A DNA stretch of 26,511 bases from Clostridium sp. (GTDB lineage Bacteria; Bacillota_A; Clostridia; Lachnospirales; Lachnospiraceae): NCBI GenBank assembly GCA_023666975.1, contig JAMPAW010000036.1, positions 1 through 26,511 of the forward strand, given 5' to 3'. This document shows, piece by piece, positions 5,840 to 22,790 of this stretch; the stretch's first letter is position 1; every line of letters starts with the position of its first letter. The notes beneath the pieces were generated by a model that was not told where the DNA came from, searched no databases, and saw nothing but the letters and a program-made list of their open reading frames with translations. The position numbers and the translations under genes were made by a program.

Positions 5840-5841
5840 TT

Positions 5842-5870
5842 TTGAAATGACATTGTGGCATTTTTACATA
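5842..5870 (+). promoter_or_regulatory. Possible weak promoter before the cytidylyltransferase
   Basis: TTGAAA (5842-5847) and TACATA (5865-5870) are 17 nt apart in the 89-nt gap. Spacing is ideal but the -10 match is only fair, and AT-rich spacers give such matches by chance. An AAAGGGGAAAG ribosome site follows before ATG 5929. Confidence 0.3.
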
Positions 5871-5928
5871 CCGATTAAAACAGGAAGAAAAAATTATAGA
5901 TGTTGGTCGAAAGGGGAAAGTATATCGG

Positions 5929-6693
5929 ATGAAGTATTTGGCGATTATTCAGGCAAGAATGGGGTCAAGCAGATTACCCAATAAAGTATTAAGGCCGTTA
6001 TGTGGGAGGCCCATGCTGCAGCATATTGTGTCAAGAATGCAAAAGAGTGAGTGTATTGATCACATTATGGTTGCAACTACAGTGAAAGAAGATGATAATG
6101 CAATAGAAGAACTTTGCCGTCAAATACAGATAGAATGTTATAGAGGGTCTGAAAATGATGTGCTAGATCGCTATTATCAAGCAGCGAGCAGATACAAGCC
6201 TCAAAATGTAGTAAGGATCACGGCCGATTGTCCATTTATAGATCCGGTTGTCGTTGATCACATTATTCAAATTCATGAAAAAGGGGGATACGATTATACA
6301 TCTAATGTGTTGGTGGAGACATATCCTGACGGATTAGATACAGAAGTTTTTAAAATTTCGGCATTAGAAAGGGCATGGAGAGAGGCAAATTTGGCATCTG
6401 AGCGGGAACATGTGACACCATACATTAAATGCAAGGGAGAGTTCAAGCGGTATTCCGTGGAGCGCAGTCCGTCGCTTGCAACGAAAAGATGGACTGTTGA
6501 TACGGAAGCAGATTTTGCGCTGGCTGTGCAGGTGTACAATGCCTTGTACGATCAAGATAGTATTTTTTTGATGGAGGATATTCTTAAATTTCTGGAAAAT
6601 CATCAACAGATTGAACGATTAAATGAAAATATTGTGAGAAATGAAGGATACTTAAAGTCAGTCGCACATGACTATATAATACGGGAGGATTAG
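5929..6693 (+). CDS. spsF: SpsF-like cytidylyltransferase (CMP-sugar synthase family)
   Basis: A 254-residue nucleotidyltransferase of the SpsF/acylneuraminate cytidylyltransferase family. The N-terminal CTP-binding loop reads IIQARMGSSRLPNKVL (residues 5-20), followed by GRPMLQHIVSRM, VATTV (48-52) and RITADCPFIDP. Such proteins transfer CMP from CTP to a sugar acid or related sugar. It lies 4 nt before the aminotransferase gene, so both are co-translated. The upstream neighbour is sialyltransferase-like, matching CMP-donor synthesis. No NeuB-type PEP-condensing synthase is in the window, so what is activated is unclear. The symbol names the family and does not imply a spore-coat role. Confidence 0.82.
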   Translation: MKYLAIIQARMGSSRLPNKVLRPLCGRPMLQHIVSRMQKSECIDHIMVATTVKEDDNAIEELCRQIQIECYRGSENDVLDRYYQAASRYKPQNVVRITADCPFIDPVVVDHIIQIHEKGGYDYTSNVLVETYPDGLDTEVFKISALERAWREANLASEREHVTPYIKCKGEFKRYSVERSPSLATKRWTVDTEADFALAVQVYNALYDQDSIFLMEDILKFLENHQQIERLNENIVRNEGYLKSVAHDYIIRED

Positions 6694-6697
6694 AAAA

Positions 6698-8005
6698 ATG
6701 GGTATATCGCAGAAATTGTATGAAAGAGCAAAAAAGATAATTCCGGGTGGAACCCAGTTATTAAGTAAGAGACCTGAAATGTATTTGCCAGGACTATGGC
6801 CGGCTTATTATGAATCAGCAAAAGGTTGTTATGTTACAGATTTAGATGATAATCGATATTGTGACATGAGCTTTATGGGGATAGGGGCGAATGTTTTAGG
6901 CTATTGTGACGAAGATGTGGATCGGGCTGTTATAGATGCGGTGAGAAAGGGAAGCATGTGTACATTGAATGCACCGGAAGAAGTGGAATTGGCAGAGATA
7001 TTATTAGAATTGCATCCTTGGGCGGATATGGTGCGGTATGCCAAAACGGGCGGAGAAGCATTATCCGTGGCGGTTAGGATTGCACGGTCATGTACGGGGA
7101 AAGAAATTGTGCTTGTATGTGGATATCATGGGTGGCATGATTGGTATCTTGCTGCTAATTTGGAAAAGGGAGATCCGCTTTCTTATGTGCATTTGAGTGG
7201 ATTAGAACCTAAGGGAGTGCCAACTGGACTCGCGGATACTAATTTTATTTTTTCATATAATGATATAGAAAGATTTCAGGAATTAATTCAAAAGTATGAC
7301 GGCAAAATTGCAGCGGTTGTTATGGAACCAATCAGAAATATATATCCGAAAGATGATTTCTTACAGAAAATAAGAAAAGTAACAGAGGAGAAAAATATCG
7401 TACTGATTTTTGACGAAGTGTCTGCGGGGTTTCGGTTATGTTGCGGTGGTGCACACTTAGTATTGGGAGTGATACCGGATATGATTACGGTAGGAAAGGC
7501 GATGAGCAATGGGTATCCCATGGCAGCAATATTGGGTAAAGAAAATGTAATGTATTCCGCACAGGACACTTTTATAAGCAGTACCTATTGGACGGAAAGA
7601 ATTGGGTTAGTGGCTTCTGTAGCTACGATACGCAAGTATCGGAAAGAGAAAGTGGATGAGCATATTAACAAAATTGGAAAGTCTGTCAAGGCGGGGCTTT
7701 GCAAGGCGGCGGACAGGCATGGAATTGCTATAGACATTTCTGGCATTGATCCATTGGTACACTTTGAGTTCTGTTACAAGGATTCGCTGGTGTATAAAAC
7801 ATTTTTTACGCAGGAAATGTTAAAAAGAGGATATTTGGCCACGACTGCTGTGTATGCGAGTTATGCACATACTGATGAGAATGTGGCTGGTTATTTGGAT
7901 GCTGTAGATGAAGTTTTTGGAGTAATGCAGGTACAAATCCTAAACGGGAAAATACCACAGCTGGAAGGGGAAGTCTGCCATTCGGGGTTTCAGAGATTGA
8001 CTTGA
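6698..8005 (+). CDS. Class III aminotransferase, glutamate-1-semialdehyde aminomutase-like
   Basis: A 435-residue PLP enzyme of the GSA aminomutase/class III transaminase family. It shows KTGGEALSVAVRIAR (phosphate loop, 116-130), GYHGWHDW (142-149), LIFDEVSAGFR (Asp239, which contacts the pyridine nitrogen) and the Schiff-base lysine in TVGKAMSNGYPMAA (Lys267). All expected catalytic residues are visible. Its place between an SpsF-like cytidylyltransferase and an aldo/keto reductase argues for an amino-sugar role rather than haem synthesis; the usual hemL pathway neighbours are absent. It probably aminates a terminal or internal carbonyl of the sugar later activated with CMP (inference). An AGAAAA-type weak site precedes ATG 6698. 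Confidence 0.85.
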   Translation: MGISQKLYERAKKIIPGGTQLLSKRPEMYLPGLWPAYYESAKGCYVTDLDDNRYCDMSFMGIGANVLGYCDEDVDRAVIDAVRKGSMCTLNAPEEVELAEILLELHPWADMVRYAKTGGEALSVAVRIARSCTGKEIVLVCGYHGWHDWYLAANLEKGDPLSYVHLSGLEPKGVPTGLADTNFIFSYNDIERFQELIQKYDGKIAAVVMEPIRNIYPKDDFLQKIRKVTEEKNIVLIFDEVSAGFRLCCGGAHLVLGVIPDMITVGKAMSNGYPMAAILGKENVMYSAQDTFISSTYWTERIGLVASVATIRKYRKEKVDEHINKIGKSVKAGLCKAADRHGIAIDISGIDPLVHFEFCYKDSLVYKTFFTQEMLKRGYLATTAVYASYAHTDENVAGYLDAVDEVFGVMQVQILNGKIPQLEGEVCHSGFQRLT

Positions 8006-8045
8006 ATAAAAATGTAATGCGTTATCTTGAATGACAGGAGAATGA

Positions 8046-8954
8046 ATGATGGCAGAATTATGTTTAGGGACTGCTCAGATGGGAATGCAATATGGTATCA
8101 ACAATAAAATTGGCAAACCACAGAAACAGGATGTATTTGAAATATTAGATTTGGCAATAGAGAATGGGATAAAAATGATTGATACCGCTAGCGCATATGG
8201 GGAAGCAGAGGAAATACTTGGGGAATATTTACAAGAAAATGCGGACAGGGCAAGGGAAATTCAAATTATTTCAAAGCAGAATGCTACGCTAGGACAAATG
8301 AATAGTATGGAAGCAGAACAAATAATTAGAAATGAATTGGAACAGTCCCTTTGCAGATTGAAGAGAGAGTATTTAGATGGTTATCTTATGCATTCCTATA
8401 GAGCGATCGACAGAATAGAGACGTTAGAAATATTTCAAAAAATAAAAGAGGATGGTCTGGTAAAGAAGATAGGTGTCTCTGTTTATGAGATCGATGAAGC
8501 TGAAATTGCAATAGAGAGCGGTATGGTCGATTATTTGCAGATGCCGTGCAGCATTTTTGATCAACGAGGATTGACAGACGGAGTATTTCTAAGAGCAAAG
8601 GAGCAGGGAGTTGTTGTTTTTGCGCGAAGTGCTTTTTTGCAAGGGCTTTTAATGATGGAAGAAAGTGAAATACCAGAATATTTGCAGGATATTGTTCCCT
8701 ACATTAGAAAATTGAATGAATTGCTTGTGGAGTATCATATTGAAAAAAAGCATGCCATTATAAAGTTTATTTTATCCGAGTCGTTGATTGACTATATGGT
8801 ATTTGGTGTTGATTCAAAGGAGCAACTACAGGATATTTTGAAGGAAAAGGATAAAGCGGATTTGCCGAAAGAGTTTATAGGAGAAATAAAAAAAGAGTTT
8901 AGCAACATATCTTCAAGACTGGTTTTACCGATTCATTGGGGGAGAGAGAAATAG
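8046..8954 (+). CDS. Aldo/keto reductase in sugar-modification module
   Basis: A 302-residue aldo/keto reductase beginning LCLGTAQMGMQYG. The catalytic tetrad is present: Asp46 and Tyr51 in MIDTASAYG, Lys77 in IISKQN and His116 in YLMHSY. These enzymes reduce carbonyls with NADPH or NADH; in polysaccharide loci they often act on keto- or aldo-sugar intermediates. AGGAG (8036-8040) lies 5 nt before ATG 8046 and 8 nt before ATG 8049, so the second ATG may be the real start (one residue shorter). It follows the class III aminotransferase by 40 nt, and they may act on the same precursor (inference). Confidence 0.85.
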   Translation: MMAELCLGTAQMGMQYGINNKIGKPQKQDVFEILDLAIENGIKMIDTASAYGEAEEILGEYLQENADRAREIQIISKQNATLGQMNSMEAEQIIRNELEQSLCRLKREYLDGYLMHSYRAIDRIETLEIFQKIKEDGLVKKIGVSVYEIDEAEIAIESGMVDYLQMPCSIFDQRGLTDGVFLRAKEQGVVVFARSAFLQGLLMMEESEIPEYLQDIVPYIRKLNELLVEYHIEKKHAIIKFILSESLIDYMVFGVDSKEQLQDILKEKDKADLPKEFIGEIKKEFSNISSRLVLPIHWGREK

Positions 8955-9025: not shown

Positions 9026-10876
9026 ATGGTTGATCGCATGGGAATGGCAAAGGCATATCATGGGATGGATAACAATACAAAAAATAGGATAGATTGGTCA
9101 GTCTATGATTTTTTGCTTCTGTTCGGTTGCATAGTGGCTGGGGCATTGATGATCGCTCGGTGCTTTTTTGGTACGGAAATAACGGATGAGGCGTATTACG
9201 TGGCAGATGCAAAAGCAATGTTAGAAGGGAATCTTCCCTATGCATACTGCACATATTCCTATGGCAGCGGCTCTTGTTTTCTCCTTATTCCGTTGATTGC
9301 TTTATATAGGATTTTTCAGCCGGAACTGACTGGGGTTTTTCTATTTTCCCGAATATGCTTTCTCGTCCTGTGGTATCTGATTTTGATTATGATATACAGG
9401 ATTTTATGCAAGAACGTGAGACGTTGTCATGCACTGCTTTTTGTCGGGATGCTAATTCCATATAAATGCGGCATCGTGTTTTTTAATTTTTCTTATAATA
9501 CTGTTCCTTGTGTATTGATATTGCTGGCGGCCTTTCTGCTGTATGACGTCTTGGAAAACCGAAGCAGGTATGGCACCCTTGAAATTCTGGTGTCAGGATT
9601 TACCTGTGGAATTGCTTTTTTTGCACAGCCGGGATATGGACTAGCAATTGTGGTTTTTGGCATCCTTCTTTTGATTAGAAGCCGCGGAGCGAAAGAAAAG
9701 ATAAAAAATATTTGCTGTTATGCCGCGGGCGGAGTGGCGGAGGTATGCGTTGTATTTATTCCGATCATCATTCAGGCGGGATTTGCCACTGTCTGGGCGG
9801 GCGTATCCAGATATTTTCATTCCTATCCGTCCAATGCTACAATGTCTGTTATGACTCCGCGTAGCAGAGCATGGAGCTTGGTTGTAAATTTCCGACAGTT
9901 TGTAATCCTTTTCATTATTATAGCACCAGTGATCTATCTGTTTTCAAGACGATATGTGCGGGAGAATGAACAGAAACTGTCTAATAAGGAATATCAATAT
10001 ATTGGGATTGCTGTTGCGGGGTGTTTGCTCATTGCTTCCTTTTTGAAAAATACTGTCTACTCAGATGCTGTTAGTTATATGGTGGCGATGATTGGAACGA
10101 TTATGTTTTGTGCCTTATTGCTGTGCAAAGCGTATGAAAAGCAAATGCTTTTAATCTATGTAGGAATTTATCCAATCTTGTTTGCTGTGGGTGAAGCAAT
10201 TTGTGTAGATTCCGGCAATTCGATAGGAAGATTTACCGCTGGTGTACCAACGCTTGCGATATGTGTGTTGGTTCTATTGGAGGAAAAATCGGAGATTATC
10301 CGTCTTCTTGCGACGGTATTGGCAGGGGTTTGTGTGTTAGAACTTGGACTAAGCGTATTTACACATGTATATCGGGATGACAGAATCTGGAATCTCCGCT
10401 ATCGAGTGGAAGATGGTGTATATAAGGGAATCTTTACGACGGAGGCAAGAGCGAAAGCGCTTCCTGAACTGGAAACATATTTGAATCAGTACATTAAAGA
10501 CGGGGAATTTTATGAGTTTCACGATTTGGCTCCGTATGGATATTTGATGATGCATACGGGTGAGCCTTGCAGTATTGCGACATGGGATACCTTGAATTAT
10601 CGATATGGAAAGAATGCGCCGGCAGAGCTTTATGAGTATTACAGGCGTAGACAAACGATACCGGATAAGCTTTTTTATGTAGATTCTGGGGACGGTATCT
10701 CGATTGAGGACATTGCGTTTCGATATAATGAGTTTGTCGAAACCTATTATGAGAAGATAGATGAAGTGGAATGGAATGATACTTTTTTTCGTGTTGTGGT
10801 ATATGAATATAGAGGCGGATTTGATGGAGATTATGATTATTGGATTGACAGGCACATGATCGTACCGGGACAGTAA
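9026..10876 (+). CDS. GT-C fold membrane glycosyltransferase (PMT/ArnT-like)
   Basis: A 616-residue membrane protein: one helix at about 28-47, then an acidic loop TDEAYYVADAKAMLEGNLPY with the Asp-Glu pair (D54, E55) that GT-C enzymes use in catalysis, then roughly ten more helices, and a soluble C-terminal domain of about 165 residues. GT-C enzymes use lipid-phosphate sugars on the outer face. A GtrB-like GT2 that could make such a donor lies two genes downstream (12110), suggesting a donor/transferase pair. AAGCGGAGG upstream supports ATG 9026; ATGs at codons 5, 7 and 14 are less well placed. The exact family and sugar are unknown. Confidence 0.75.
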   Translation: MVDRMGMAKAYHGMDNNTKNRIDWSVYDFLLLFGCIVAGALMIARCFFGTEITDEAYYVADAKAMLEGNLPYAYCTYSYGSGSCFLLIPLIALYRIFQPELTGVFLFSRICFLVLWYLILIMIYRILCKNVRRCHALLFVGMLIPYKCGIVFFNFSYNTVPCVLILLAAFLLYDVLENRSRYGTLEILVSGFTCGIAFFAQPGYGLAIVVFGILLLIRSRGAKEKIKNICCYAAGGVAEVCVVFIPIIIQAGFATVWAGVSRYFHSYPSNATMSVMTPRSRAWSLVVNFRQFVILFIIIAPVIYLFSRRYVRENEQKLSNKEYQYIGIAVAGCLLIASFLKNTVYSDAVSYMVAMIGTIMFCALLLCKAYEKQMLLIYVGIYPILFAVGEAICVDSGNSIGRFTAGVPTLAICVLVLLEEKSEIIRLLATVLAGVCVLELGLSVFTHVYRDDRIWNLRYRVEDGVYKGIFTTEARAKALPELETYLNQYIKDGEFYEFHDLAPYGYLMMHTGEPCSIATWDTLNYRYGKNAPAELYEYYRRRQTIPDKLFYVDSGDGISIEDIAFRYNEFVETYYEKIDEVEWNDTFFRVVVYEYRGGFDGDYDYWIDRHMIVPGQ

Positions 10877-10910: not shown

Positions 10911-12113
10911 ATGGCAAAAATAATGGTAGTCGCTGGGGGAGACTGGCAGATTGAACTAATCAAGAAAGCAAAAAGCATGGGGCATTATGTAATCTGTTCA
11001 AATTTATATGAAGATTCGCCGGCATTTCCGTTTGCAGATGCCTGTGAAGTGGCGAATGTATTGGACAAGGAGAAGAACCTTGAGATTGCGAAAAGGTATA
11101 TGCCGGATGCGGTTATATCCGATCAGAGTGATATTGCGGTCCCTACCGTTGCTTACTTGAATGAAAAGTTGGGATTGCAAGGAATCGGGATGGATAAGGC
11201 AGATTTGTTTACAGACAAATCTCTCCAAAGACAGTTTTGCAGAGAACATGGCATTATGATTCCAGATTTCGCGGTGTGCGAGACACCAGAAGATGCATTG
11301 CCACTGCTAGAAAAGTATGGAAAAATTATAATTAAACCCATAGACAGCCAGTCAAGCCGCGGTGTATATACGATTGAAGGTGAAGGGCAGCTTAGAGCCA
11401 GATATCGCGATTCCGTGGTATGGTCGAACCGCAGGAAGGAATTTCTCGCAGAAGAGTATATCAACGGGGATGAATTTACGGTAGATGGTCTGGTCATTCA
11501 GGGACATCACTACCCGCTCTGTATATCAGTGAAGGAGATGTATCCTCAAAACCCTAATATTTCCAGAACACAGTCTTATAGTTATTTGTCGGACAAGTAT
11601 GATTATGACTTGTTGCGTGAGACAAATCGGCATTTGGTGGAGGCGATAGGGTTACCGATGGGACTAACGCATTCGGAGTATAAGGTGCATAACGGTCAGT
11701 TCTATTTAGTGGAAGCCGGAGCCCGAGGAGGCGGCAGTAATCTGTCAGGCAAGATTGTTCCATTCATGTCTGGGATAGATAATTATGAATACTTGATCAA
11801 AGAGGCGCTTGGGGAATATGTGGACGAAGATACAGTTAAGAATAAGGTGTTTTCAAGAAATCGTTATGTGGTGATGCGCTTTTTTGATTTTGGAGAAGGA
11901 AAGGTTAGGGAAGTGGAAGGTCTTGCGTATTTAAGGGATCATCCCATGCTGATTGATTATCAGTTGGAAGTAAAGGCTGGGGATGTATTGCGTCAGCCTG
12001 AATATGGAAGACTCCGCCCAGGACATTTTATTATTGGTGGCAAGAATAAGGAGATTGTGGAAAAGGAAGCGCTTCAAATAGTGAATGCGGTTAGGGTGAT
12101 GTTTGAATCATGA
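10911..12113 (+). CDS. ATP-grasp ligase (carboxylate-amine ligase-like)
   Basis: A 400-residue ATP-grasp protein. The N-terminal preATP-grasp part starts MVVAGGDWQIELIKKAK. The central region has IIIKPIDSQSSRGV (Lys142 and a Ser-rich nucleotide loop), AEEYINGDEFTVDG (180-193), THSEYK (Glu256) and VEAGARGGGSN (Glu268 metal ligand). Family members couple a carboxylate, via an acyl phosphate, to an amine or similar nucleophile. With a PLP enzyme, an aldolase and an adenylating enzyme in the next 4.3 kb, it may form an amide between an amino or keto acid and a sugar amine (inference). Its stop overlaps the next start as ATGA (12110-12113), indicating translational coupling. An AGAGG site precedes ATG 10911. 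Confidence 0.85.
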   Translation: MAKIMVVAGGDWQIELIKKAKSMGHYVICSNLYEDSPAFPFADACEVANVLDKEKNLEIAKRYMPDAVISDQSDIAVPTVAYLNEKLGLQGIGMDKADLFTDKSLQRQFCREHGIMIPDFAVCETPEDALPLLEKYGKIIIKPIDSQSSRGVYTIEGEGQLRARYRDSVVWSNRRKEFLAEEYINGDEFTVDGLVIQGHHYPLCISVKEMYPQNPNISRTQSYSYLSDKYDYDLLRETNRHLVEAIGLPMGLTHSEYKVHNGQFYLVEAGARGGGSNLSGKIVPFMSGIDNYEYLIKEALGEYVDEDTVKNKVFSRNRYVVMRFFDFGEGKVREVEGLAYLRDHPMLIDYQLEVKAGDVLRQPEYGRLRPGHFIIGGKNKEIVEKEALQIVNAVRVMFES

Positions 12114-13075
12114 ATGTATATGAAAATAAAAGAGAAAAGATCAGTTTTGTTATCCCGTGTTATAATTCAACGAACACGATAGCCGGTGTCGTGAAGGAAA
12201 TTCAAGAAATTATGAATGGCGAGATGAGCGGATATGACTATGAGATTGTATTGGTTAATGATGGGTCCCCGGATGGGACCACCTACGGCGCTATTCTCGA
12301 TCTTGTGAAAAAGGAGAAATATATTAAAGGTGTCAATCTTGCCCGCAATTTTGGACAGCCATCAGCGGTCATGGCCGCACTCCATCAGACGGTAGGGGAT
12401 TATGTCGTGTGCGGAGATGATGACGGACAGACACCATTTAACGAGCTGCCAAAACTCTTTGCCAAGATCAGGGAGGGGTATGATTTGGTCGAGGCGAGGT
12501 ATGCAACGAGAGAAAAGCGTTCGCTGTTTAGAAAGTTTGGAACAATGCTGAATGAAGGGATGGCAACGTGGTTGATTGCAAAGCCAAATGGATTAGAGCT
12601 TACCACATATTGGGTGGTGAAGAGATTTGTGGTAAATGAAATGATTGCCTATCCTAATTCCTATCCGTACTTGGGGGGGCTTATGCTCAGGGCGACACAG
12701 AACGCATGCAATGTCGATGTGTCTCATAGAGAGAGGGTATCCGGCAGTTCCGGATATAGCTTTAAGAAAATGCTGGAGTTATGGCTGAACGGTTTTACGT
12801 CATTCTCGGTAAAGCCGCTTAGACTGATGTCCATTATTGGAATTCTAGTCGCAATGATTGGATTTTTATATGGGGTGATCACGATCATCAGGAAATTTAC
12901 TGATCCTGCTATGATAGTAGGTTATAGTTCTATCATGTCAGTAAATCTGTTTATGTTTGGTGTACTTTCATTTTTTATGGGGCTAATAGGAGAGTATGTG
13001 GGTAGAATCTATATTTCCTTGAATAAGGCACCGCAGTTTGTGATTAAAGATTATAAGGAATCGGATGAAATGTAG
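12110..13075 (+). CDS. GtrB/DPM-type GT2 (undecaprenyl-phosphate glycosyltransferase-like)
   Basis: A 321-residue GT2 enzyme with ISFVIPCYNS (11-20), VNDGSPDGT (49-57), NLARNFGQ (76-83), the acidic CGDDDGQTP (Asp103-105) and two C-terminal helices (about 237-261 and 275-297). This is the GtrB/ArnC/DPM1 architecture that makes polyprenyl-phosphate sugars. It lies inside the ligase/PLP/aldolase cassette and starts within the ATGA shared with the ATP-grasp gene. The GT-C genes at 9026 and 16451 are candidate users of its product. A G7 tract (12673-12679) codes for Gly-Gly in frame, and a long inverted repeat lies at 12895-12946. Confidence 0.88.
   Translation: MNVYENKREKISFVIPCYNSTNTIAGVVKEIQEIMNGEMSGYDYEIVLVNDGSPDGTTYGAILDLVKKEKYIKGVNLARNFGQPSAVMAALHQTVGDYVVCGDDDGQTPFNELPKLFAKIREGYDLVEARYATREKRSLFRKFGTMLNEGMATWLIAKPNGLELTTYWVVKRFVVNEMIAYPNSYPYLGGLMLRATQNACNVDVSHRERVSGSSGYSFKKMLELWLNGFTSFSVKPLRLMSIIGILVAMIGFLYGVITIIRKFTDPAMIVGYSSIMSVNLFMFGVLSFFMGLIGEYVGRIYISLNKAPQFVIKDYKESDEM
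12895..12946. repeat. Two-part inverted repeat inside the GT2 gene
   Basis: ATTTACTGA (12895-12903) pairs perfectly with TCAGTAAAT (12938-12946), and within it ATGATAG (12911-12917) pairs with CTATCAT (12930-12936). The inner and outer stems are separated by 7 nt on one side and 1 on the other. It encodes part of the loop between the two membrane helices. It could form an RNA hairpin affecting translation, or be chance. Confidence 0.5.
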
Positions 13076-13084
13076 GGATGTGGA

Positions 13085-14086
13085 ATGGAAGACAGGAAAC
13101 GGACAAGAGAGGAATATGGCGGTTTTCTGCCGTTGGAACTGAATCCGGGCCAGGAACTGTTTGCAAGATATGAGAAATTTTTGCTTCGGTTTAATTCAGT
13201 CAAAGCGGCATTGGCATACTTGCTGGACAAATTGCCATGCAGAAAAATTTATATTCCGTATTACTACTGCCCGTCTACGACAGACGCAATTAAGACGATG
13301 GGAAAAGAAGTGTACCTTTACCATGTAGACGATCAACTGATGCCGATAGCGGTTCCTGATGAACGGGACAGCGGCGTGTTGCTGGTAGATTACTTTGGTG
13401 TGAGAGACGGACAGGTAAACACGCTTGCCAAATCGTTCCAATCTGCAGAGGTGATTATAGACTGGGCGCATTCTTTTTATGCGGCACCCGTAATCGAACG
13501 GCATATTCATAATCTCTATTCTGCGAAGAAATTTTTTGGCGTTCCGGATGGCGCATATTTGATTTCAGCTCATGCTGTTTCTGTTGTGCAGGTTCTGACG
13601 GAGGCCTATGCTTACGGAGAGTACCTTATGTTGAGCTATGAAAAAGGTACAAATGCTGCATACGCAATGAAAAAAGAGGCGGATAGTGTGATTTCAGGCA
13701 ATTATGGATACATGTCGAAGCTCGCGATTGGACTACTTCGAAATGTTGATTATGAGCGGGTAGCAGAACGGAGAAGTGTAAATTATATGACCCTCCATCG
13801 TGCCCTAAAGAGTAGAAATGAACTGGAGTTGCCGGAAAATTGCATCCCATATCAGTACCCGATGCTGGTGAGGGGACGTGGAAGAAATATTAAACGGAAG
13901 TTGATAGAAGATAGGATATTTGTATCGACATTATGGTCGGGCCAGGAGCTGATGAGCAATGGAAATCCCTTTGAATTGGATATGGTAAAACATTGCATTT
14001 TTCTTCCACTTGATCAACGGTATCATGAATTAGATATGGAGTATATAGCCGGAAAGGTTAAGGAGTGGACGGATGAAAATACTTGA
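13085..14086 (+). CDS. Short DegT/DnrJ-fold PLP-dependent enzyme
   Basis: A 333-residue protein I read as a divergent, shortened DegT/DnrJ/EryC1-type PLP enzyme. FNSVKAALAYLL (36-47) matches the Ser/Gly-Ala cofactor loop, IYIPYYYCPST (55-65) the following strand, IIDWAHSF (124-131) the Asp and His that hold the pyridine ring, and SAKKFFGVPDGAYL (146-159) the lysine loop, with Lys149 aligning with the Schiff-base lysine. Typical members have 360-400 residues. It probably transaminates a keto substrate, perhaps the product of the adjacent aldolase (inference). An AGGGATG site precedes ATG 13085. It overlaps the aldolase gene by 14 nt, so the two are likely made together. Confidence 0.68.
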   Translation: MEDRKRTREEYGGFLPLELNPGQELFARYEKFLLRFNSVKAALAYLLDKLPCRKIYIPYYYCPSTTDAIKTMGKEVYLYHVDDQLMPIAVPDERDSGVLLVDYFGVRDGQVNTLAKSFQSAEVIIDWAHSFYAAPVIERHIHNLYSAKKFFGVPDGAYLISAHAVSVVQVLTEAYAYGEYLMLSYEKGTNAAYAMKKEADSVISGNYGYMSKLAIGLLRNVDYERVAERRSVNYMTLHRALKSRNELELPENCIPYQYPMLVRGRGRNIKRKLIEDRIFVSTLWSGQELMSNGNPFELDMVKHCIFLPLDQRYHELDMEYIAGKVKEWTDENT

Positions 14087-15113
14087 CACGACGGTTCGCG
14101 ATGGCAGCTATGCAGTAGACTTTAAGTTTAGCTGCAAGGATGTACGTGATCTGGTAGCCAGATCGGAAAAAATCGGGTTAGAATATATTGAGATTGGTCA
14201 TGGACTTGGTCTAAATGCCAGTTCTGCGGAATATGGATATTCCCTACAAACCGATGTCGAGTACATGCAGGCTGCACGTGCGGCTGCCGAGCATGCCAAG
14301 CTGGGCTTCTTCTGTATCCCGGGGATTGCGAGATTAGAAGATATTGCGATCGCAAAGGCGCATGGAATGGATTTCATCAGGGTAGGTGTTAATGTTAATG
14401 AGTACCAGAAGGCATTTCCATATTTAAAATATGCACATAAGGCGGGCGTGGAAGTGTTTGTGAATTTTATGAAAACATATACGGCAACCTATGAAGAGTT
14501 TGCCCTTGCATCCAAAGAAGCGTATGAATATGGCGTAGAGTGTGTTTATATCGTAGACAGTGCTGGTTGCATGAATACGGAAGAAATAGCTGGGTATTTA
14601 AAGGCTGCACGCATGCATTCTGATGTAAAGCTTGGCTTTCACGGACATAATAATTTGGGGCTTGCGATTGAAAATACGTACTTTTGTGTTACGGAAGGGA
14701 TTGATTTTATTGATTGTTCATATCAGGGATTAGGGAGAAGCCTTGGAAATGCATCGCTAGAACAGATGGTAATGGTACTGGAAAAGAGAGGGCACAAAAC
14801 AGGGTTTGACATCCCAAGGGTACTCGAATATGGATATGCGGGGTTGAGAAATATTGTGAGGGATAGACTTATTAATCCGCTCGATTATATATGTGGCTAT
14901 GCCGGATTCCATTCAAGTTTTATAAAAGATATTTACAAATGCTCTGTGGATAAAAGAGTTGATCCGCTAAGACTTATCATTGCGTATAGCGAAGTAAATA
15001 AAGCCAGCATGGATCATGATATATTATATCGCGTGGCGGAGACGTTGCCGCAGGACTTGGAGGATAATCCATATGGATTTGCAGAGTACTTCTCGGAAGT
15101 GTACAATCAATAG
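14073..15113 (+). CDS. DRE-TIM aldolase, DmpG/HMGL-like (4-hydroxy-2-oxo-acid aldolase family)
   Basis: A 346-residue TIM-barrel aldolase of the HMGL-like superfamily, closest by eye to 4-hydroxy-2-oxovalerate aldolase (DmpG). It has LDTTVRDG (Arg9, Asp10), IGHGLGLNASSAEYG (41-55), CIPGIARLED (81-90), DSAGCMNTEE (162-171), the metal-binding GFHGHNN (His190, His192) and GLGRSLGNASLE (219-230). DmpG cleaves or forms a bond between pyruvate and an aldehyde. The position after RDG where DmpG has Met-His is Ser-Tyr here, so the general base may differ. No DmpF-type aldehyde dehydrogenase is nearby. In this setting it probably builds a 4-hydroxy-2-oxo acid for the glycan (inference). AAGGAG precedes ATG 14073 inside the PLP gene. 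Confidence 0.8.
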   Translation: MKILDTTVRDGSYAVDFKFSCKDVRDLVARSEKIGLEYIEIGHGLGLNASSAEYGYSLQTDVEYMQAARAAAEHAKLGFFCIPGIARLEDIAIAKAHGMDFIRVGVNVNEYQKAFPYLKYAHKAGVEVFVNFMKTYTATYEEFALASKEAYEYGVECVYIVDSAGCMNTEEIAGYLKAARMHSDVKLGFHGHNNLGLAIENTYFCVTEGIDFIDCSYQGLGRSLGNASLEQMVMVLEKRGHKTGFDIPRVLEYGYAGLRNIVRDRLINPLDYICGYAGFHSSFIKDIYKCSVDKRVDPLRLIIAYSEVNKASMDHDILYRVAETLPQDLEDNPYGFAEYFSEVYNQ

Positions 15114-15139
15114 ATTCAAGTAAGCATGAGGATTATAAG

Positions 15140-16438
15140 ATGAATAAATATCAAGTGCAGGAAAAGTTATTTAACCTCTATTGTCTGTATGATGTGATTG
15201 TGATGTATTTGCATCTTCACTTAAGTCCACGGATGCAGAGGGAGATTCAGAACAGGAGATTGCGAAAGCTGATCAAAAAGGCATACAGAAATCCATTTTA
15301 TAAAGAAAGATTTGATCGTTCCGGTGTGAGACCGGAGGATATTCAGACAAAGGAGGACCTAAAGAAGCTGCCGGTTTTAACAAAAAGTGAATACAGGACG
15401 TGGATGCTGGAGGAGCTGAAGAGACCGGAAACGCGCTTTTTTAAGCTAACCCACACCAGCGGGTCAACCGGAATTCCGACAACAAACATTTTTCCACCGA
15501 GGGAGTACGCAACACATTACATGGCAGACTTTTTTGGCTGGATCAGGGGGGGATACAATCCTTTTTTCGGGAAATCCTTGACAAAACAGCCGGGTGATGC
15601 AGCGGTTGGAACCAATTCGTTGATCCAAAAAGTGGGGATTCTCAGGCGTGAGTGCTTTGATACGCGATGGGAAAGGGAACAGATCATTGAGAAGATGAAC
15701 AGTTATAAGCCGGACTTTATATTAGCAAATAGCTCGGAATTACTCTATATTGCACAGTATAGTTTGGAACATTCGCTACCGATCCATAAACCGAAGTATT
15801 ATTGCCCAAACGGGGAAAATATAGAAGGACTAGCAGAAAAAAAACTTAGAGAAGTATATGGGGACGGATTGATTAACCTGTATGGATGTACCGAAATGGG
15901 TTCCTTTGCTGTGCGAAAATCGAACGATAACGGATATTATATAACGGAAGATTTGGTAGCGGTCAATGTCGTGGAGGGAGATGAAAAAGGGGAAGGCAGT
16001 CTTCTTGTCACGCCGCTTTACAGGACCCATTATCCGCTGATCAATTATGAGATAGGTGATATTGCTTGCTTGGAAATAAGAGATGGCGTAGATTATATTT
16101 CTAAGATAAAGGGAAGAAAGGAAGAGGTTTTTTGTTGGAAGGATGGCAGTCAGACAATCTTTATGCGCTTATATGACATTACAAGAGAGTTAAATGATAT
16201 ATATCAGATTCGGTTTATCCAAGAGTCATACGAAAAAATAGTTTTTCAGGTCGTAAAAGATATTGTGTCTGAAAAGACCTGTGAGTTTTTAGAAAGCTAT
16301 TTAAGAAAAGCGTTCGAAGGTCAGTTTCCTAAGAATATAGAAATAGAAATCCAGTGGATGAAGGTGATTCCGCCGGATCCGAACGGGAAAATCAGAATGA
16401 TGATCAGCAAGGTACAGGAAAAAGAAATGAGTGAATGA
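15140..16438 (+). CDS. CapK/PaaK-like adenylate-forming enzyme
   Basis: A 432-residue member of the phenylacetate-CoA ligase/CapK group of the ANL superfamily. Visible motifs are the P-loop THTSGSTGIPT (104-114), YGCTEMG (from about residue 248), INYEIGD (A7-like) and NGKIR near the C-terminus, where the A10 lysine lies. It should adenylate a carboxylic acid. CapK homologues are frequent in capsule loci with poorly known roles. Here it follows the aldolase by 26 nt and could activate that enzyme's acid or its aminated form (inference). A GAGG site precedes ATG 15140. A G7 tract (15546-15552) is in frame. The N-terminus (12-30) is hydrophobic and may associate with the membrane. Confidence 0.84.
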   Translation: MNKYQVQEKLFNLYCLYDVIVMYLHLHLSPRMQREIQNRRLRKLIKKAYRNPFYKERFDRSGVRPEDIQTKEDLKKLPVLTKSEYRTWMLEELKRPETRFFKLTHTSGSTGIPTTNIFPPREYATHYMADFFGWIRGGYNPFFGKSLTKQPGDAAVGTNSLIQKVGILRRECFDTRWEREQIIEKMNSYKPDFILANSSELLYIAQYSLEHSLPIHKPKYYCPNGENIEGLAEKKLREVYGDGLINLYGCTEMGSFAVRKSNDNGYYITEDLVAVNVVEGDEKGEGSLLVTPLYRTHYPLINYEIGDIACLEIRDGVDYISKIKGRKEEVFCWKDGSQTIFMRLYDITRELNDIYQIRFIQESYEKIVFQVVKDIVSEKTCEFLESYLRKAFEGQFPKNIEIEIQWMKVIPPDPNGKIRMMISKVQEKEMSE

Positions 16439-16450
16439 GGATAGAAGTGG

Positions 16451-18189
16451 ATGAAGATAAAACAATACTATGGGCTGTGGATACTGCTTTTTACTGTAAT
16501 AGCGTTTACTATTTTCTTAACAGTGCAGGGAGATAAATTATATTTTTACTTGAATGATAATTTTGAGTTTGACATTGTGCATTTCAAAATGTTTAAGGAT
16601 AATAATCTTTGGGTCGAGAGGGCTGCACCGGTTCCTTTCTTGGGTGGGGTTGATCGTTCTTTTTTTGTTATGAAGAATAATCTAAAAAGCATGTTGTATT
16701 ACATTCTTGATACCAAAGTAGCATTTTGGAGTTGTTTTGTGATTGCAATTTTTTGCTCGGGGGGGGGTGCTTTCTTTTAGGAAACTCTATAAAAAAGCTT
16801 ATACGGGAAAATATTGACCCCAATATTTTCTGTATATGTGGAATTATATACATTTTTGGAGGAATGTGGTATAGTGAAATTATAGGATTTGCCTTGATTC
16901 CCTGGTGGGTGTTTGTTACTGCTGAAATATATAGGACAAGAAGGTCGTATATATGCTTGATATACCCGTTTTTAATTCACAATATTTCTACACCGTTGAT
17001 AGGAATTTTTCTCATTTTTTATACGGTGCTTTTTTTTACAGGAGTGATGATAAGAGAGAAGAAAGGAAACAGGGTGCTGGCTTTTTCGCTTGGAGTAATC
17101 ATGTCGAGCGTTATTATTTTTGACAATAAGCTGCTTGGATTTGTTCTAAATGGTTCACAGGAGACAGTAAAAGGTTTTGCGCAGCTAGATGGATTATATA
17201 GTGATACACTGAAAGAATGCATGGTAAAACTAAGAAATGCGCTGTTATTTAGAGGAAGCTTTTATCATGCCGGGTTGTGTATATGGAGATATGTGGCGTT
17301 GCCGCTGATTCTGATATTTTTTGTGGTGTTTAATTTTTGTGGCAAGTTTTTTAAGATAGATAAAGGTTTTTTGATAACATATGATTGCTTGATGGGCGTC
17401 TTGTTTATAAATGCATGCGGTTATGCCTTTAACGAGTGCCGCGCTATTCGTGTATTGATCCCTTTTTTGTCAGGATTTTCATTTGAAAGATTTCTATGGC
17501 TTAGCCCATTCATTGTGCTGATGAGTATTGCTATGATCCTTCAATACTTAAGCAACAGGAGGAAAATTTTCGGTACTTTGATTATCATAGCAGCATTGCC
17601 ATTAAGCGTGGTCTTGGATCCGATGTATAGCACTCTTTATTCCATGTACAATACCTTGCATTTGAATTATGTTGCAGTGGTAAAGGGAATAGTAGGTGAT
17701 GCGTGGTGGCGATGGGATGATTTTTATGCAGAAAACTTATTTGAACAAATCAAGGAGGAGATTTCTTATGATGGCGAGTGGTCCGTGGCATATGGACTGG
17801 ATCCAGCGGTGTTGCAATATAATGGGATAAAGACACTTGATGGATATTATAATGTTTATTCAAATGTGTATAAAGAAAAATGGGAAGAATTGATCGCTCC
17901 GGTTTTAGAGAGAAGTGAATCGGTAAAAGAGTATTGGGATAATTCAGGGGGGATCCGAGCATACATTTATTCCACGGAATGGGATTTCCCAGGAAAGCAT
18001 TCGATCAGTGAAATTGATTCGGCAGATATGCTCATAAATCCGGATGTGTTAAGGGAATTGAACGGAGAGTATGTTTTTTCGCTTGTGAAAATTTCCAATG
18101 CGGAAGAACTGGGACTAGACTATATTGGCCTTTGGAGCGATGAAAAGGGGATTTATGATGTAAGAGTATATCGGTTCATGTTATATTAA
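16451..18189 (+). pseudogene. DUF6044/YkoS-like multi-TM protein, frameshifted at a G9 tract
   Basis: As read, translation from ATG 16451 ends at TAG 16778-16780 (109 residues), and the rest is open in another frame to TAA 18187-18189. One extra G in the tract at 16759-16767 (G10, or G7) joins both into a 579-residue protein. It has an N-terminal helix, an acidic loop (LNDNFEFD), PVPFLGGVDRSF, many helices and a soluble C-terminal domain with DPAVLQYNGIKTLDGYYN, a pattern I associate with DUF6044 (Bacillus YkoS). Such proteins resemble GT-C glycosyltransferases, so it may modify the glycan outside the membrane. Either a phase-variable gene caught off, a fixed pseudogene or a homopolymer error. 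A GAGG site precedes the ATG. Confidence 0.8.
16759..16767. repeat. G9 homopolymer causing frameshift
   Basis: Nine consecutive G bases, the longest G run in the window, mark exactly where the DUF6044-like frame breaks. G10 or G7 restores a continuous protein reading CSGGGCFLLGNS or CSGGCFLLGNS. Such tracts are prone to slipped-strand mispairing. Confidence 0.9.
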
Positions 18190-18240: not shown

Positions 18241-19458
18241 ATGAAGGTAGTGCATTTAGCGACAACCGATTTAGGCGGCTCTTATAAGGCGGTGGAGCGG
18301 ATTCACCGCGCGCTTTGCATGTGCGGCGTGGAATCCAATGTGCTGCTGCGAACCAAATATCATGAGGACAGCATCGGAACACAGGTGATCGACACGCCAT
18401 GGAAAAGTCTCGTATCCAAAGCAAAGAATGTCGGGAATCTGCTGTTGTCAAAGGGTGAGATCATCACGGATCGTTTCGGAACAGATATGTCCGGGCATCC
18501 TGCGGTCCGAGAGGCGGATGTGATCATCCTGCATTGGGTGAATTCGTTTATCGGTTATCGCAATTTGGAGCAGCTTCTTGCGCTTGGGAAACCGGTTATC
18601 TGGGTGGCGCATGATATGTGGAACTGCACGGGAGGCTGTCATTATGATCGTTATTGCGGGAGATACGAGCAGGGGTGTGGGAAATGTCCGCTGATCGGTT
18701 CCCAAAAAGAAAATGATGTATCACGCCGCAATTTTAACAGAAAAGAACAGGCGGGGAATATGCGGCGGGAGGCGGGAACACTCACGCTGGTCGGACCGAG
18801 CCGGTGGAGTGTAGAATGCGCGGGGAAGAGCCGCATTTGGCAGGGAAAGCGTATCACTTGGATTTCCAATCCGATTGATTATGAGCAATATCGCAGAATG
18901 GATGACCGGGAGGCACTGCGCGTAAAATACGGACTGACAACGGATAAAAAGATCATTCTGTTCGGAGCCTGCGGCGCGCTGTCGAATCGGACAAAGGGGG
19001 CGCAGAACCTGTTAAAGGCACTGCAAAAGTTGGATGCGGCAGGCTATTTGTTGGCGGTATTTGGAAATAAAAAGGGCGAACGGATGGAAGACTGCCCATT
19101 GGAGACGCGCTATCTCGGCTATCTTCATTCCGAGGAGGACATGACGGAAGTCTATAATCTGGCAGATGTGTTTTTTGCTCCGTCTGAGCAGGAGAGCTTT
19201 TGTTATACGGTGGGAGAGGCGCTTGCCTGCGGGACGCCCGTCGTGGGATTTGGTATCGGCGGGATCGCCGAGCAGGTGAGGCATAAAGAAAACGGATATT
19301 TGGCGGAGTATGGCAATTATGAGCAGCTTGCCGACGGCGTCCGCTATTGTACGGAGCAGCCGATGAAATATATCAGAAATGCCAATTCATTGAAGGAGAT
19401 TGGGGAAGAATATAAGGAGCTGTGTGAGGAATTGCTCAGAGAAGGCAGAGGTGAATAG
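18241..19458 (+). CDS. GT4 family glycosyltransferase with Cys-rich loop
   Basis: A 405-residue GT-B enzyme of family GT4. The N-terminal domain begins VVHLATTDLGGSYKAVERI. A cysteine-rich stretch follows HDMWNCTGGCHYD with Cys129, 133, 139, 146 and 149, as in WcaC-like GT4 proteins. The C-terminal domain has APSEQESFCYTVGEALACG, with the E-x7-E pair Glu318/Glu326 that binds the nucleotide sugar. It should add a sugar to the growing lipid-linked unit in the cytoplasm. GAGGGGAGAAAG precedes ATG 18241. It is markedly GC-richer than the genes just upstream (58% by hand count at 18481-18540), suggesting a different origin. One base separates its stop from the next start. Confidence 0.88.
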   Translation: MKVVHLATTDLGGSYKAVERIHRALCMCGVESNVLLRTKYHEDSIGTQVIDTPWKSLVSKAKNVGNLLLSKGEIITDRFGTDMSGHPAVREADVIILHWVNSFIGYRNLEQLLALGKPVIWVAHDMWNCTGGCHYDRYCGRYEQGCGKCPLIGSQKENDVSRRNFNRKEQAGNMRREAGTLTLVGPSRWSVECAGKSRIWQGKRITWISNPIDYEQYRRMDDREALRVKYGLTTDKKIILFGACGALSNRTKGAQNLLKALQKLDAAGYLLAVFGNKKGERMEDCPLETRYLGYLHSEEDMTEVYNLADVFFAPSEQESFCYTVGEALACGTPVVGFGIGGIAEQVRHKENGYLAEYGNYEQLADGVRYCTEQPMKYIRNANSLKEIGEEYKELCEELLREGRGE

Positions 19459-19459
19459 C

Positions 19460-20575
19460 ATGGGGCAAAACTCGTTCAAACAACAACGGACCCGTGTTGT
19501 TTCTGGTGATTGCAGTGCGATCACGGGCATGAAAGAGAAGAATGCTTCAATTGAAGCGACGAGATTTGTCTGCTCCATTGTTGTGTGTCTGCATCATTTC
19601 AGGATGTTTTCGGATGTCATGCCGTATGGCGGGGGATATTTGGGCGTTGACTTTTTTTTGATCATAAGCGGATATTTTTTGGCAAAGGGTAATAGTGGAA
19701 ACATTGAGGATGGAAAAATACGAAAGACTGCGAAATATTTTTGGAGCAGGTGGAAAAGGCTATTTCCGCAATATATCTGTATATGGTTTATAGCGCTGAT
19801 TGTCCGGTTGCTTGTGATAGAAAAACCGATCACATGGGGCATACACTATTATATTCGGGAAGCGTTGATGATAGAGATATGCTGTCTGCCGTCGGGCGAG
19901 AGGGTGATCCCAACGGACTGGTACTGCGGGTATCTGTTAATGGCATTGGTCATTGTTTTCGCAGTGCGCAGTTTCTTTGATAAGAAGTATTTTGACTGGT
20001 CAGCGCTTACAGCCGGCGGAGTATGTTATCTTATTTTATCATTGTGTTATGGACATTTGAATTTATATCCTCAGTACGCATGTATCATTTGCATTGCGTT
20101 GTTACGAGCTGTCGCTGGTGTCCTTATGGGGTGTGCGGCGCAGAGAGTCAGCGGTATCCTAAACCGAGGCGCTTGTGAAAAATGGGATAAATGGAAAAAG
20201 TGTATATGTCTGTTTTTGGGAAGTGTATTCATTTTGTACATGACATTGTATGATAACGCTTATCGGATTACCGACTTTTTGGTGGTGTTCGTATTTTGGT
20301 TTCTGTTTGTCTATGGCATTACAGATGAAAGAATCCGGCCGGGGCAGAATCTCTCGCGAGTTTTCAGATACCTGGGGCGGTTATCATATACAATTTATCT
20401 GATTCATTATGTAATTGTGCAAATATTTGTGAGGTTTTCATTGTTTATAGGAAAAGACTGGAAGCTGGTATCTGTTATTTTTCTGATACTTGTGGTGGCG
20501 GTCGCGGCTTTGATTGACTGTATTATGGAGAGCACTTCGCGTAGTTGTGGCAGACATTTATCACAAGACGATTAA
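19460..20575 (+). CDS. Acyltransferase 3 family membrane O-acyltransferase
   Basis: Read from ATG 19460, this is a 371-residue acyltransferase-3 (OafA/NodX-like) protein with about ten membrane helices. Diagnostic segments are FVCSIVVCLHHFRMF (catalytic His45/His46 region) and GGYLGVDFFLIISGYFLAK (58-76). These enzymes carry acyl groups, usually acetyl, across the membrane to extracytoplasmic glycans. I chose 19460 because it follows the GT4 stop directly with an AGAGGTG site; an ATG at 19400 lies inside the GT4 gene, and ATG 19529 would also keep the whole family domain. It contains a T8 run (19652-19659) but the frame is intact. Confidence 0.88.
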   Translation: MGQNSFKQQRTRVVSGDCSAITGMKEKNASIEATRFVCSIVVCLHHFRMFSDVMPYGGGYLGVDFFLIISGYFLAKGNSGNIEDGKIRKTAKYFWSRWKRLFPQYICIWFIALIVRLLVIEKPITWGIHYYIREALMIEICCLPSGERVIPTDWYCGYLLMALVIVFAVRSFFDKKYFDWSALTAGGVCYLILSLCYGHLNLYPQYACIICIALLRAVAGVLMGCAAQRVSGILNRGACEKWDKWKKCICLFLGSVFILYMTLYDNAYRITDFLVVFVFWFLFVYGITDERIRPGQNLSRVFRYLGRLSYTIYLIHYVIVQIFVRFSLFIGKDWKLVSVIFLILVVAVAALIDCIMESTSRSCGRHLSQDD

Positions 20576-21677: not shown

Positions 21678-22790
21678 ATGAATTCGATATATGTAACCCG
21701 TTCCTCCATGCCAACGCTGGAAGAGTATGTAGATGAGATCAGAGACATTTGGGATACGCATTGGCTTACGAATATGGGAGAAAAGCATATTCGTCTGCAA
21801 GCAGAACTGGCGCAGTATCTTGGAGTGGAGAATGTAGAACTCTTCACAAACGGACATATGGCACTGGAATTGACCATGCAGGCAATGAGGCTACGGGGGG
21901 AGGTCATAACAACTCCGTTTACGTTTGCGTCAACAACTCATGCGATCGTACGCAACGGGTTAACGCCGGTTTTTTGTGATATTCGAGAAGATGACTTTAC
22001 GATAGACGTGGAGAAGATAGAAGGATTAATCACGGATAAGACCTGTGCGATCGTTCCGGTGCACGTATATGGTAATTTATGCAATATGGAGGAAATCGAA
22101 AGAATTTCCAAAAAGTACGGGTTAAAAGTGATTTATGATGCGGCGCATGCCTTTGGGGTGAGCTATAAGGGAAAAGGGGTTGGAATCTATGGGGATGCAT
22201 CGTGTTTTAGTTTCCACGCAACGAAAGTTTTTAATACAATAGAAGGTGGTGCAGTCTGCTATAAAGACAAAGCGTTTGGCATGGAATTGTATCGTTTGAA
22301 AAACTTTGGGATTAGGGGAGAAGAAGTTGTAGACGGAGTTGGAGCGAATGCAAAGATGAATGAGTTTTGCGCGGCAATGGGGTTATGCAATCTTAGGTAT
22401 GTTGATGAGGAAATACGGAAACGGAAGCAGGTTGTGGAGCATTACAGAGAGCGTCTGCGCAATGTAAAAGGATTGAGATTGAACAATGTTCAAGAAGATG
22501 TTCAGACAAATTATTCGTATTTTCCAATTGTTATTGATGAGAAAATATTTGGAAAGAGCAGGAACGAGGTATATGATCTGTTAAGAGAAAAAGGAATCTA
22601 TACGAGAAAGTATTTTTATCCGTTGACGAATACATTTGATTGCTATCATGGAATGTATGATGTATCGGAGACACCGATCGCGTTATCTATCAGCAAGCGT
22701 GTACTGACATTGCCATTGTATGCGGATCTGGAACTGAACATCGTCGATCGAGTCTGTGATATGCTCCGGGAACGTGGAGAGAAATCATAG
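21678..22790 (+). CDS. DegT/DnrJ/EryC1/StrS family sugar aminotransferase
   Basis: A 370-residue PLP sugar aminotransferase with all hallmarks: FTNGHMALELTM (56-67), ITTPFTFASTTHA (77-89), VPVHVYGN (126-133), IYDAAHAFG (152-160, Asp and His on the cofactor) and FSFHATKVFNTIEGGA with Schiff-base Lys183. The motif set resembles enzymes that aminate 4-keto-6-deoxy-hexose nucleotides (VioA-like), a family-level guess. The dehydratase making a 4-keto sugar is not in the window. A hexapeptide acyltransferase two genes on may N-acylate its product. AGGAG (21663-21667) precedes ATG 21678. A G6 run (21895-21900) is in frame. Confidence 0.9.
   Translation: MNSIYVTRSSMPTLEEYVDEIRDIWDTHWLTNMGEKHIRLQAELAQYLGVENVELFTNGHMALELTMQAMRLRGEVITTPFTFASTTHAIVRNGLTPVFCDIREDDFTIDVEKIEGLITDKTCAIVPVHVYGNLCNMEEIERISKKYGLKVIYDAAHAFGVSYKGKGVGIYGDASCFSFHATKVFNTIEGGAVCYKDKAFGMELYRLKNFGIRGEEVVDGVGANAKMNEFCAAMGLCNLRYVDEEIRKRKQVVEHYRERLRNVKGLRLNNVQEDVQTNYSYFPIVIDEKIFGKSRNEVYDLLREKGIYTRKYFYPLTNTFDCYHGMYDVSETPIALSISKRVLTLPLYADLELNIVDRVCDMLRERGEKS

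Follow-up and report, generated by a model that had tools for sequence, protein, structure and literature searches.

What do an ATP-grasp ligase, a family 2 glycosyltransferase (GT2), a short pyridoxal phosphate (PLP) enzyme, a pyruvate aldolase and a CapK-like adenylate-forming enzyme make together when their genes are packed end to end on one strand? This arrangement is found in a 26,511-nucleotide stretch of DNA from Clostridium sp. (Lachnospiraceae; assembly GCA_023666975.1, contig JAMPAW010000036.1), hereafter the window. An earlier note on the window had described the five genes as one cassette that could make an unusual acid and attach it, possibly to a lipid-carried sugar. A check of the open reading frames (ORFs) and sequence of the window located all five genes, each with an ATG start:

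10911..12113, + strand: ATP-grasp ligase of the L-amino acid ligase kind (PF13535; PF18603, LAL_C2; PDB 3vot)
12110..13075, + strand: GT2 of the ArnC/GtrB type (PF00535; best NCBIfam match PRK10714)
13085..14086, + strand: short PLP aminotransferase with a DegT fold (predicted structure; no family model; predicted PLP lysine K149)
14073..15113, + strand: HMGL/DmpG-like pyruvate aldolase with swapped Tyr13/His280 (PF00682, PRK08195)
15140..16438, + strand: PaaK/CapK-like adenylate-forming enzyme, an optional neighbour (PaaK-like, below every cut-off)

The ligase and GT2 genes overlap by 4 nt (ATGA at 12110-12113) and the PLP enzyme and aldolase genes by 14 nt (14073-14086), and gaps of 9 nt and 26 nt separate the GT2 gene from the PLP enzyme gene and the aldolase gene from the CapK-like gene, respectively, all as the earlier note had written. 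The flanks are equally tight, with 34 nt between the gene for a 616-aa membrane protein on the 5' side and the ligase gene, and 12 nt between the CapK-like gene and a DUF6044 gene. As described below, the genes for the ligase, GT2, PLP enzyme and aldolase are a real, rare cassette, and on balance we lean towards the view that it N-acylates a 4-amino-4,6-dideoxyhexose, probably with an aminoacyl group, in a pathway that runs via a lipid carrier.

A rare cassette of four genes

A profile scan of genome contigs with an alignment of the PLP enzyme gave 24 loci, in which the PLP enzyme is thus present by design. In 11 of these (L001-L008, L012, L016 and L024; the core loci), we found a ligase 63-78% identical to that of the window, and the genomes of all 11 hold an aldolase 54-70% identical to that of the window and clearly apart from their other HMGL proteins (24-29% identity); for L024, the close aldolase lies on a different contig of the same genome. 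Among the PLP-anchored loci, none had a close ligase without a close aldolase, or the reverse. Moreover, GT2 copies that are 65-82% identical adjoin the ligase in eight of the 11 core loci, and the GT2 is next to the ligase at 49% identity in L012 and within the locus at 47% identity in L008. All four genes are present in 10 of the 11 genomes with close ligase and aldolase relatives. The genes for the PLP enzyme and the aldolase directly adjoin or overlap each other in seven of the 11 core loci (L002, L004-L008, L012), as they do in the window, and gene order is mostly kept, with variation in L001, L007, L008 and L012. The check that the earlier note had called for, a search of genomes for co-occurrence in conserved order, came out in its favour for these four enzymes, which co-occur, mostly in the same order; each of the 11 genomes with a close ligase also holds a close aldolase.

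Genome-wide searches for the aldolase covered 13 genomes; those for the ligase covered the loci and 299 genomes from the family of G003, which was taken as Lachnospiraceae from the label of L003 (Mediterraneibacter). Among these 299 genomes, a close ligase and a close aldolase were each found once, both in G003, together with three weaker matches each (at 42-45% and 31-37% identity). The taxon labels of the loci are Lachnospiraceae, Oscillospiraceae and other Clostridia as well as two metagenome bins labelled Bacteroides (L012) and Spirochaetales (L016), assignments that may be due to mis-binning. Two scans found no relatives in viral contigs.

To offset the anchoring of the scan on the PLP enzyme, we also compared the match lists of the aldolase, the PLP enzyme and the CapK-like enzyme for shared contigs, using exactly equal contig size as a proxy for the same contig. 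The lists held 120 of 408, 120 of 2178 (aldolase) and 120 of 437 matches, which makes all shared counts lower bounds; contigs shorter than 3 kb were dropped, keeping 94 of the 120 aldolase matches and 97 of the 120 CapK matches. Among the matches listed, at least 46 of the 94 aldolase contigs recur by exact size in the PLP list, while a shifted-size control (93 of the 94 contigs) gave a mean of 0.2 and a maximum of 2. Finally, we compared pairwise gene distances across the window and eight of the 11 core loci (L007, L016 and L024 left out; Spearman correlation, 2000 permutations). Ligase distances correlate with those of the GT2 (0.80; 10 of 2000 permutations as high) and of the PLP enzyme (0.79; 11 of 2000), and aldolase distances correlate with those of the other genes at 0.36-0.56 (56-142 of 2000).

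A CapK-like gene is present in only two of the 11 core loci (L004 and L008), or three if a weaker match in L012 is counted, and for this reason the conserved unit is four genes. A five-gene cassette is ruled out; the earlier note's cassette stands for the ligase, GT2, PLP enzyme and aldolase and falls for the CapK-like gene. Among the closest 36 CapK relatives, at least nine of 30 contigs of 3 kb or more match a PLP enzyme or aldolase contig in size (shifted control 0.1), compared with at least three of 67 for the remaining relatives (shifted control 0.3). The CapK-like protein is a PaaK-like adenylase below every cut-off and does not qualify as PaaK itself (TIGR02155, 63 bits against a cut-off of 646). 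It may activate a second acid, for instance for the acyltransferase encoded at 19400-20575. The listed relatives of this protein carry the Pfam accession PF27533, a family that did not come up when the protein from the window was scanned with Pfam.

WecE and the likely amino sugar acceptor

WecE is the dTDP-4-amino-4,6-dideoxygalactose transaminase, which makes deoxythymidine diphosphate (dTDP)-linked 4-amino-4,6-dideoxygalactose (Fuc4N). The earlier note had missed that the cassette is linked to this enzyme. Four copies, from L003, L008, L012 and L022, scored 503-636 bits against the WecE model NF008687 (cut-off 375). The wecE gene lies directly 5' of the ligase gene, in the same orientation, in L003, L008 and L024, inside the operon in L012, and in L016 upstream with one unrelated ORF in between. 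In L001, pieces of a broken wecE are found just upstream (6177-6497), and an intact copy is encoded on the opposite strand, some 8 kb beyond the PLP enzyme gene. WecE was over the cut-off in 10 of the 11 aldolase genomes and in 12 of the 13 genomes searched, compared with 96 of the 299 genomes in the family of G003 and one of 14 control genomes. The difference between the aldolase genomes and the family of G003 (Fisher p = 1.2e-4, with G003 removed from the comparison set) is only a guide, as are the other Fisher p-values, because the genomes compared are related, belong in part to other families and are for the most part metagenome bins. The PLP enzyme search of the 299 genomes matched 30, of which seven with E above 1e-38 were left out and 23 were counted (G003 and G011 were already in the discovery set); WecE is present in 12 of these 23 genomes versus 84 of the 276 others (p = 0.03). 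In eight of the 12 genomes with both, the PLP family and WecE lie within 13 kb on one contig.

In enterobacteria, WecD follows WecE and converts dTDP-Fuc4N to dTDP-Fuc4NAc. The cassette resembles this step in that a WecE equivalog lies beside it in relatives; it differs in that the acetyltransferase WecD was over the cut-off in none of the 13 genomes (one weak 28-bit match; one of 14 control genomes) and the ligase stands in its place. RmlB was over the cut-off in 13 of 13 genomes, which is weak evidence because RmlB is common. In total, the WecE linkage points to the likely amine acceptor. Moreover, an NDP-hexose 2,3-dehydratase (NDP, nucleoside diphosphate) is found in L012 and L022, again deoxysugar-nucleotide chemistry.

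In L012 (205-3752), the genes for this dehydratase and for a Gfo/Idh-like reductase directly precede wecE, and L012 likely makes a 2-deoxy version of the amino sugar.

A candidate lipid-carrier pathway and its rivals

The aldolase matches PF00682 (124 bits) and passes the cut-off of the PRK08195 subfamily (264 bits; cut-off 229) while missing that of the TIGR03217 equivalog (226.7 bits; cut-off 286). Like DmpG, a 4-hydroxy-2-oxovalerate aldolase of the same family, it keeps the metal ligands (Asp18, His200 and His202 in DmpG) as well as Arg17; by alignment with 1nvm, these residues correspond to D10, H190, H192 and R9 in all 120 sequences listed of 2178 matches. Unlike in DmpG, His21 and Tyr291, its catalytic pair, are replaced by Tyr13 and His280 in all of these 120 sequences, the window's own included, and a Pfam scan of 20 window proteins found no aldehyde dehydrogenase. 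K134 is invariant in the same 120 sequences and could hold a charged aldehyde. The Tyr/His swap also occurs in three sister aldolases of 42-45% identity (L026-L028). The same swap was seen in sister aldolases of L029, L030 and L031 (42-45% identity), near which there are weak matches to AMP-binding enzymes (L029, L031), DegT-like enzymes (two in L029) and an ATP-grasp enzyme (L030).

The PLP enzyme has no match in Pfam or NCBIfam (E <= 0.001), including PF01041, and no sequence match in the PDB (E <= 1). Its predicted structure has the DegT aminotransferase fold, and the closest folds are sugar aminotransferases. Thus, the fold and the predicted PLP lysine (K149) speak for membership of the DegT/DnrJ/EryC1/StrS family, and the PF01041 match is missing. 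The cassette gives this unannotated aminotransferase family a context. In L011, L014 and L010, PLP enzyme relatives lie beside hexapeptide acyltransferase, glyoxalase-like and GNAT genes, with no aldolase in the DNA examined, and in L011 and L014 also beside an AMP-binding enzyme. In the Spirochaetales bin, the PLP enzyme gene is seemingly interrupted (two tblastn pieces; L016, 5738-6690).

The ligase carries an ATP-grasp domain (PF13535, ATP-grasp_4; 47 bits, cut-off 27) and the LAL_C2 domain (PF18603; 45 bits, cut-off 29.4), and with both over the cut-off it fits the L-amino acid ligases (LAL) by its domains; its PDB match is the L-amino acid ligase 3vot (2.4e-15). Across 14 aligned ligases, E268 and R272 are invariant and E256 is nearly so. 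The enzyme is predicted to link an acid as an amide to a 4-amino sugar nucleotide. The GT2, which matches PF00535 and has ArnC (PRK10714; 166 bits) as its best NCBIfam match without reaching the equivalog cut-off of 529, is predicted to be a polyprenyl-phosphate sugar transferase.

We infer all substrates, the order of the aldolase, PLP enzyme and ligase steps and the GT-C (C-type glycosyltransferase) nature of the membrane proteins from what was computed here, i.e. the gene families, the predicted fold of the PLP enzyme, the conserved catalytic residues, the cassette, the WecE linkage and the lack of WecD over the cut-off. In the proposed pathway, WecE in the relatives, and possibly a DesI-like enzyme in the window, would make a dTDP-4-amino-4,6-dideoxyhexose, either Fuc4N or 4-amino-4,6-dideoxyglucose (Qui4N). 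The DmpG-like aldolase would join pyruvate and an aldehyde to a 4-hydroxy-2-oxo acid, which the short PLP enzyme would transaminate to a 4-hydroxy-2-amino acid. The ATP-grasp enzyme would then activate the acid as an acyl phosphate and form an amide with the 4-amino group of the sugar, replacing acetyl transfer by WecD, and the ArnC/GtrB-like GT2 would transfer the sugar to undecaprenyl phosphate. Finally, a flippase and a large GT-C-like membrane transferase would put the sugar on a surface glycan. The best reading is still an acid joined as an amide to a sugar on the lipid phosphate of the GT2, as the earlier note had supposed in outline.

This pathway can be set beside known systems. In the Arn pathway for 4-amino-4-deoxyarabinose (Ara4N), an amino sugar is made, N-acylated and moved by ArnC to undecaprenyl phosphate. 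The same sequence, with an ArnC-like GT2, is proposed here; the differences are a dTDP-6-deoxyhexose in place of a uridine diphosphate-linked pentose, a ligase in place of formyl transfer, and a GT2 below the ArnC cut-off. The closest system with tested genes that we found is the C. difficile type B flagellin locus (CDR20291_0244-0247). This locus has an ATP-grasp gene (PF13535) and an FdtB-like gene, and the ATP-grasp mutant loses the terminal sugar (PMC5207246), which is 3-amino-3,6-dideoxygalactose (Fuc3N) N-acylated with taurinyl-Ala-Gly (PMC5207245). This shows that products of the peptidylamido-glycan type are real in Clostridia. In both cases, an ATP-grasp ligase shares the locus with a dTDP-amino-sugar transaminase (here WecE in the relatives, and only a DesI-like enzyme in the window), and an N-acylated amino-dideoxyhexose is the product, proposed here from genes alone. 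By contrast, the C. difficile locus has FdtB and Fuc3N where the cassette has WecE and Fuc4N, and ornithine cyclodeaminase and FemAB-like genes where the cassette has the aldolase and PLP enzyme; the cassette includes a lipid-phosphate GT2, and none is named for the C. difficile locus in the passages of the two reports that were examined. A general Pfam scan of the 20 window proteins, with no search aimed at them, did not name homologues of FdtB, FemAB or ornithine cyclodeaminase. The aldolase/PLP enzyme route, the Fuc4N-type acceptor and the GT2 would make the cassette a different version of the C. difficile-type system. Among the matches listed in the open-licence literature, we recognised no description of this gene set and found none of the making of such a decoration in this form.

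Other ATP-grasp genes place the cassette in a wider setting. ATP-grasp subfamilies other than that of the cassette adjoin WecE in the aldolase-free loci L011, L014 and L022, lie within about 1 kb of it in L032 and L034, and lie 3.5 kb away in L033. Two ATP-grasp genes are found in each of L019 and L034, and L014 has one plus a second in two pieces; the combination of PLP enzyme, GT2, WecE and two ATP-grasp genes in L034, L019 and L014 suggests dipeptide-like caps. Our fuller picture, which is more tentative than the pathway itself, is of a gut-bacterial surface sugar, a 4-amino-4,6-dideoxyhexose to which a gamma-hydroxy amino acid is joined as an amide; the acid would be made on site from pyruvate by the swapped-His/Tyr aldolase, and the sugar would be carried on undecaprenyl phosphate. 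The cassette would then belong, as one branch, to a wider modular group whose members use different ATP-grasp ligases, in some cases two, to load different acids onto sugars made by WecE. This suggests a broader, modular peptidyl-cap-like chemistry in gut and rumen commensals; it also names a likely sugar, and the two swapped residues of the aldolase are open to direct test.

Several observations weigh against the pathway. The Pfam scan found no WecE among the 20 window proteins; with a DesI-like enzyme in the window and no WecE, Qui4N could be the sugar here, or else a wecE gene may be located outside the contig. G006 holds the cassette with WecE below the cut-off (best 156 bits), WecE is on another contig than the cassette in G002, G004, G005 and G007, and many genomes in the family of G003 have WecE and lack this cassette. 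G007 is without a GT2 match at E <= 1e-40. As for the PLP enzyme, no aldolase was found in the DNA of the PLP enzyme loci L009-L011, L013-L015 and L017-L023, genome G009 has a PLP enzyme relative and no aldolase, G011 has only a 28% aldolase match, and PLP enzyme and aldolase distances are weakly correlated (Spearman 0.36; 142 of 2000 permutations as high). Therefore, the substrate of the PLP enzyme need not be the aldolase product, and because this enzyme also occurs without the aldolase, its step is the weakest of the proposed pathway.

In a different assignment, the acid would not be an amino acid: the ligase would attach the 4-hydroxy-2-oxo acid itself or some other carboxylate, and the role of the PLP enzyme would be to add a second amino group to the sugar or to act elsewhere in sugar-nucleotide synthesis. 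The closest folds of the PLP enzyme would suit such a role, as would its relatives that lack the aldolase yet lie near WecE and other ATP-grasp genes. However, WecE already supplies the amino sugar in 10 of 11 genomes, and the adjacency of the PLP enzyme and aldolase genes and their shared contigs tie the two enzymes together; we regard this assignment as unlikely. Considerably less probable is that the aldolase makes a 3-deoxy-2-keto acid destined for a sialic acid-like residue activated by cytidine monophosphate (CMP), which would be formed by the products of four genes of the window (for a cytidylyltransferase, a class III aminotransferase, an aldo/keto reductase and a polysialyltransferase-like protein). 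The loci of the window, L005 and L006 contain the first three of these genes and that of L004 the first two, and polysialyltransferase-like genes come after the core, together with Wzx genes, in L001, L003-L006 and L016. This idea is weakened by four core loci, L002, L007, L008 and L012, which have ligase, PLP enzyme and aldolase and in which none of those genes matched (flanks of up to 10 kb; L002 ends at the ligase). The least probable explanation, and a very improbable one, is that shuffling of a capsule locus has merely placed five unrelated genes side by side. The CapK-like gene, which comes and goes, the varying order in four core loci and the moderate tracking of aldolase distances with other genes would be expected from shuffling, and for CapK it may hold; for the four other genes it is contradicted by the co-occurrence of ligase and aldolase in every such genome, the shared contig sizes among the matches listed and the correlated ligase and GT2 distances.

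Neighbouring genes

Three further features of the window bear on the acceptor and on the final transfer step:

9026..10876, + strand: 616-aa multi-helix membrane protein, candidate GT-C transferase (no Pfam match)
16451..18189, + strand: DUF6044 membrane protein, candidate GT-C, as two ORFs in different frames (PF19510 in both pieces)
21678..22790, + strand: DesI-like sugar aminotransferase (PF01041, 325 bits)

The DesI-like enzyme, encoded 9.5 kb downstream, reaches neither the DesI cut-off (298 bits; cut-off 650) nor that of the WecE model (187 bits; cut-off 375), and is a possible source of a dTDP-Qui4N acceptor in the window's strain. Homologues of the 616-aa protein adjoin the ligase in L006, lie within the locus in L008 and adjoin WecE in L037. 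Because its structural model failed, with a low-confidence predicted local distance difference test score (pLDDT) of 39, its GT-C label is one that we infer. The frame of the DUF6044 gene switches near a run of nine G (16759-16767), possibly a phase-variable tract or an assembly error.

The polysialyltransferase-like gene and the genes for the cytidylyltransferase, the class III (GSA-like) aminotransferase and the aldo/keto reductase lie at positions 4721-8954 of the window. All but the first of these are found again near the cassette of L005 and L006, and two of them near that of L004. The genes at 4721-8954 likely point to a CMP-activated residue.

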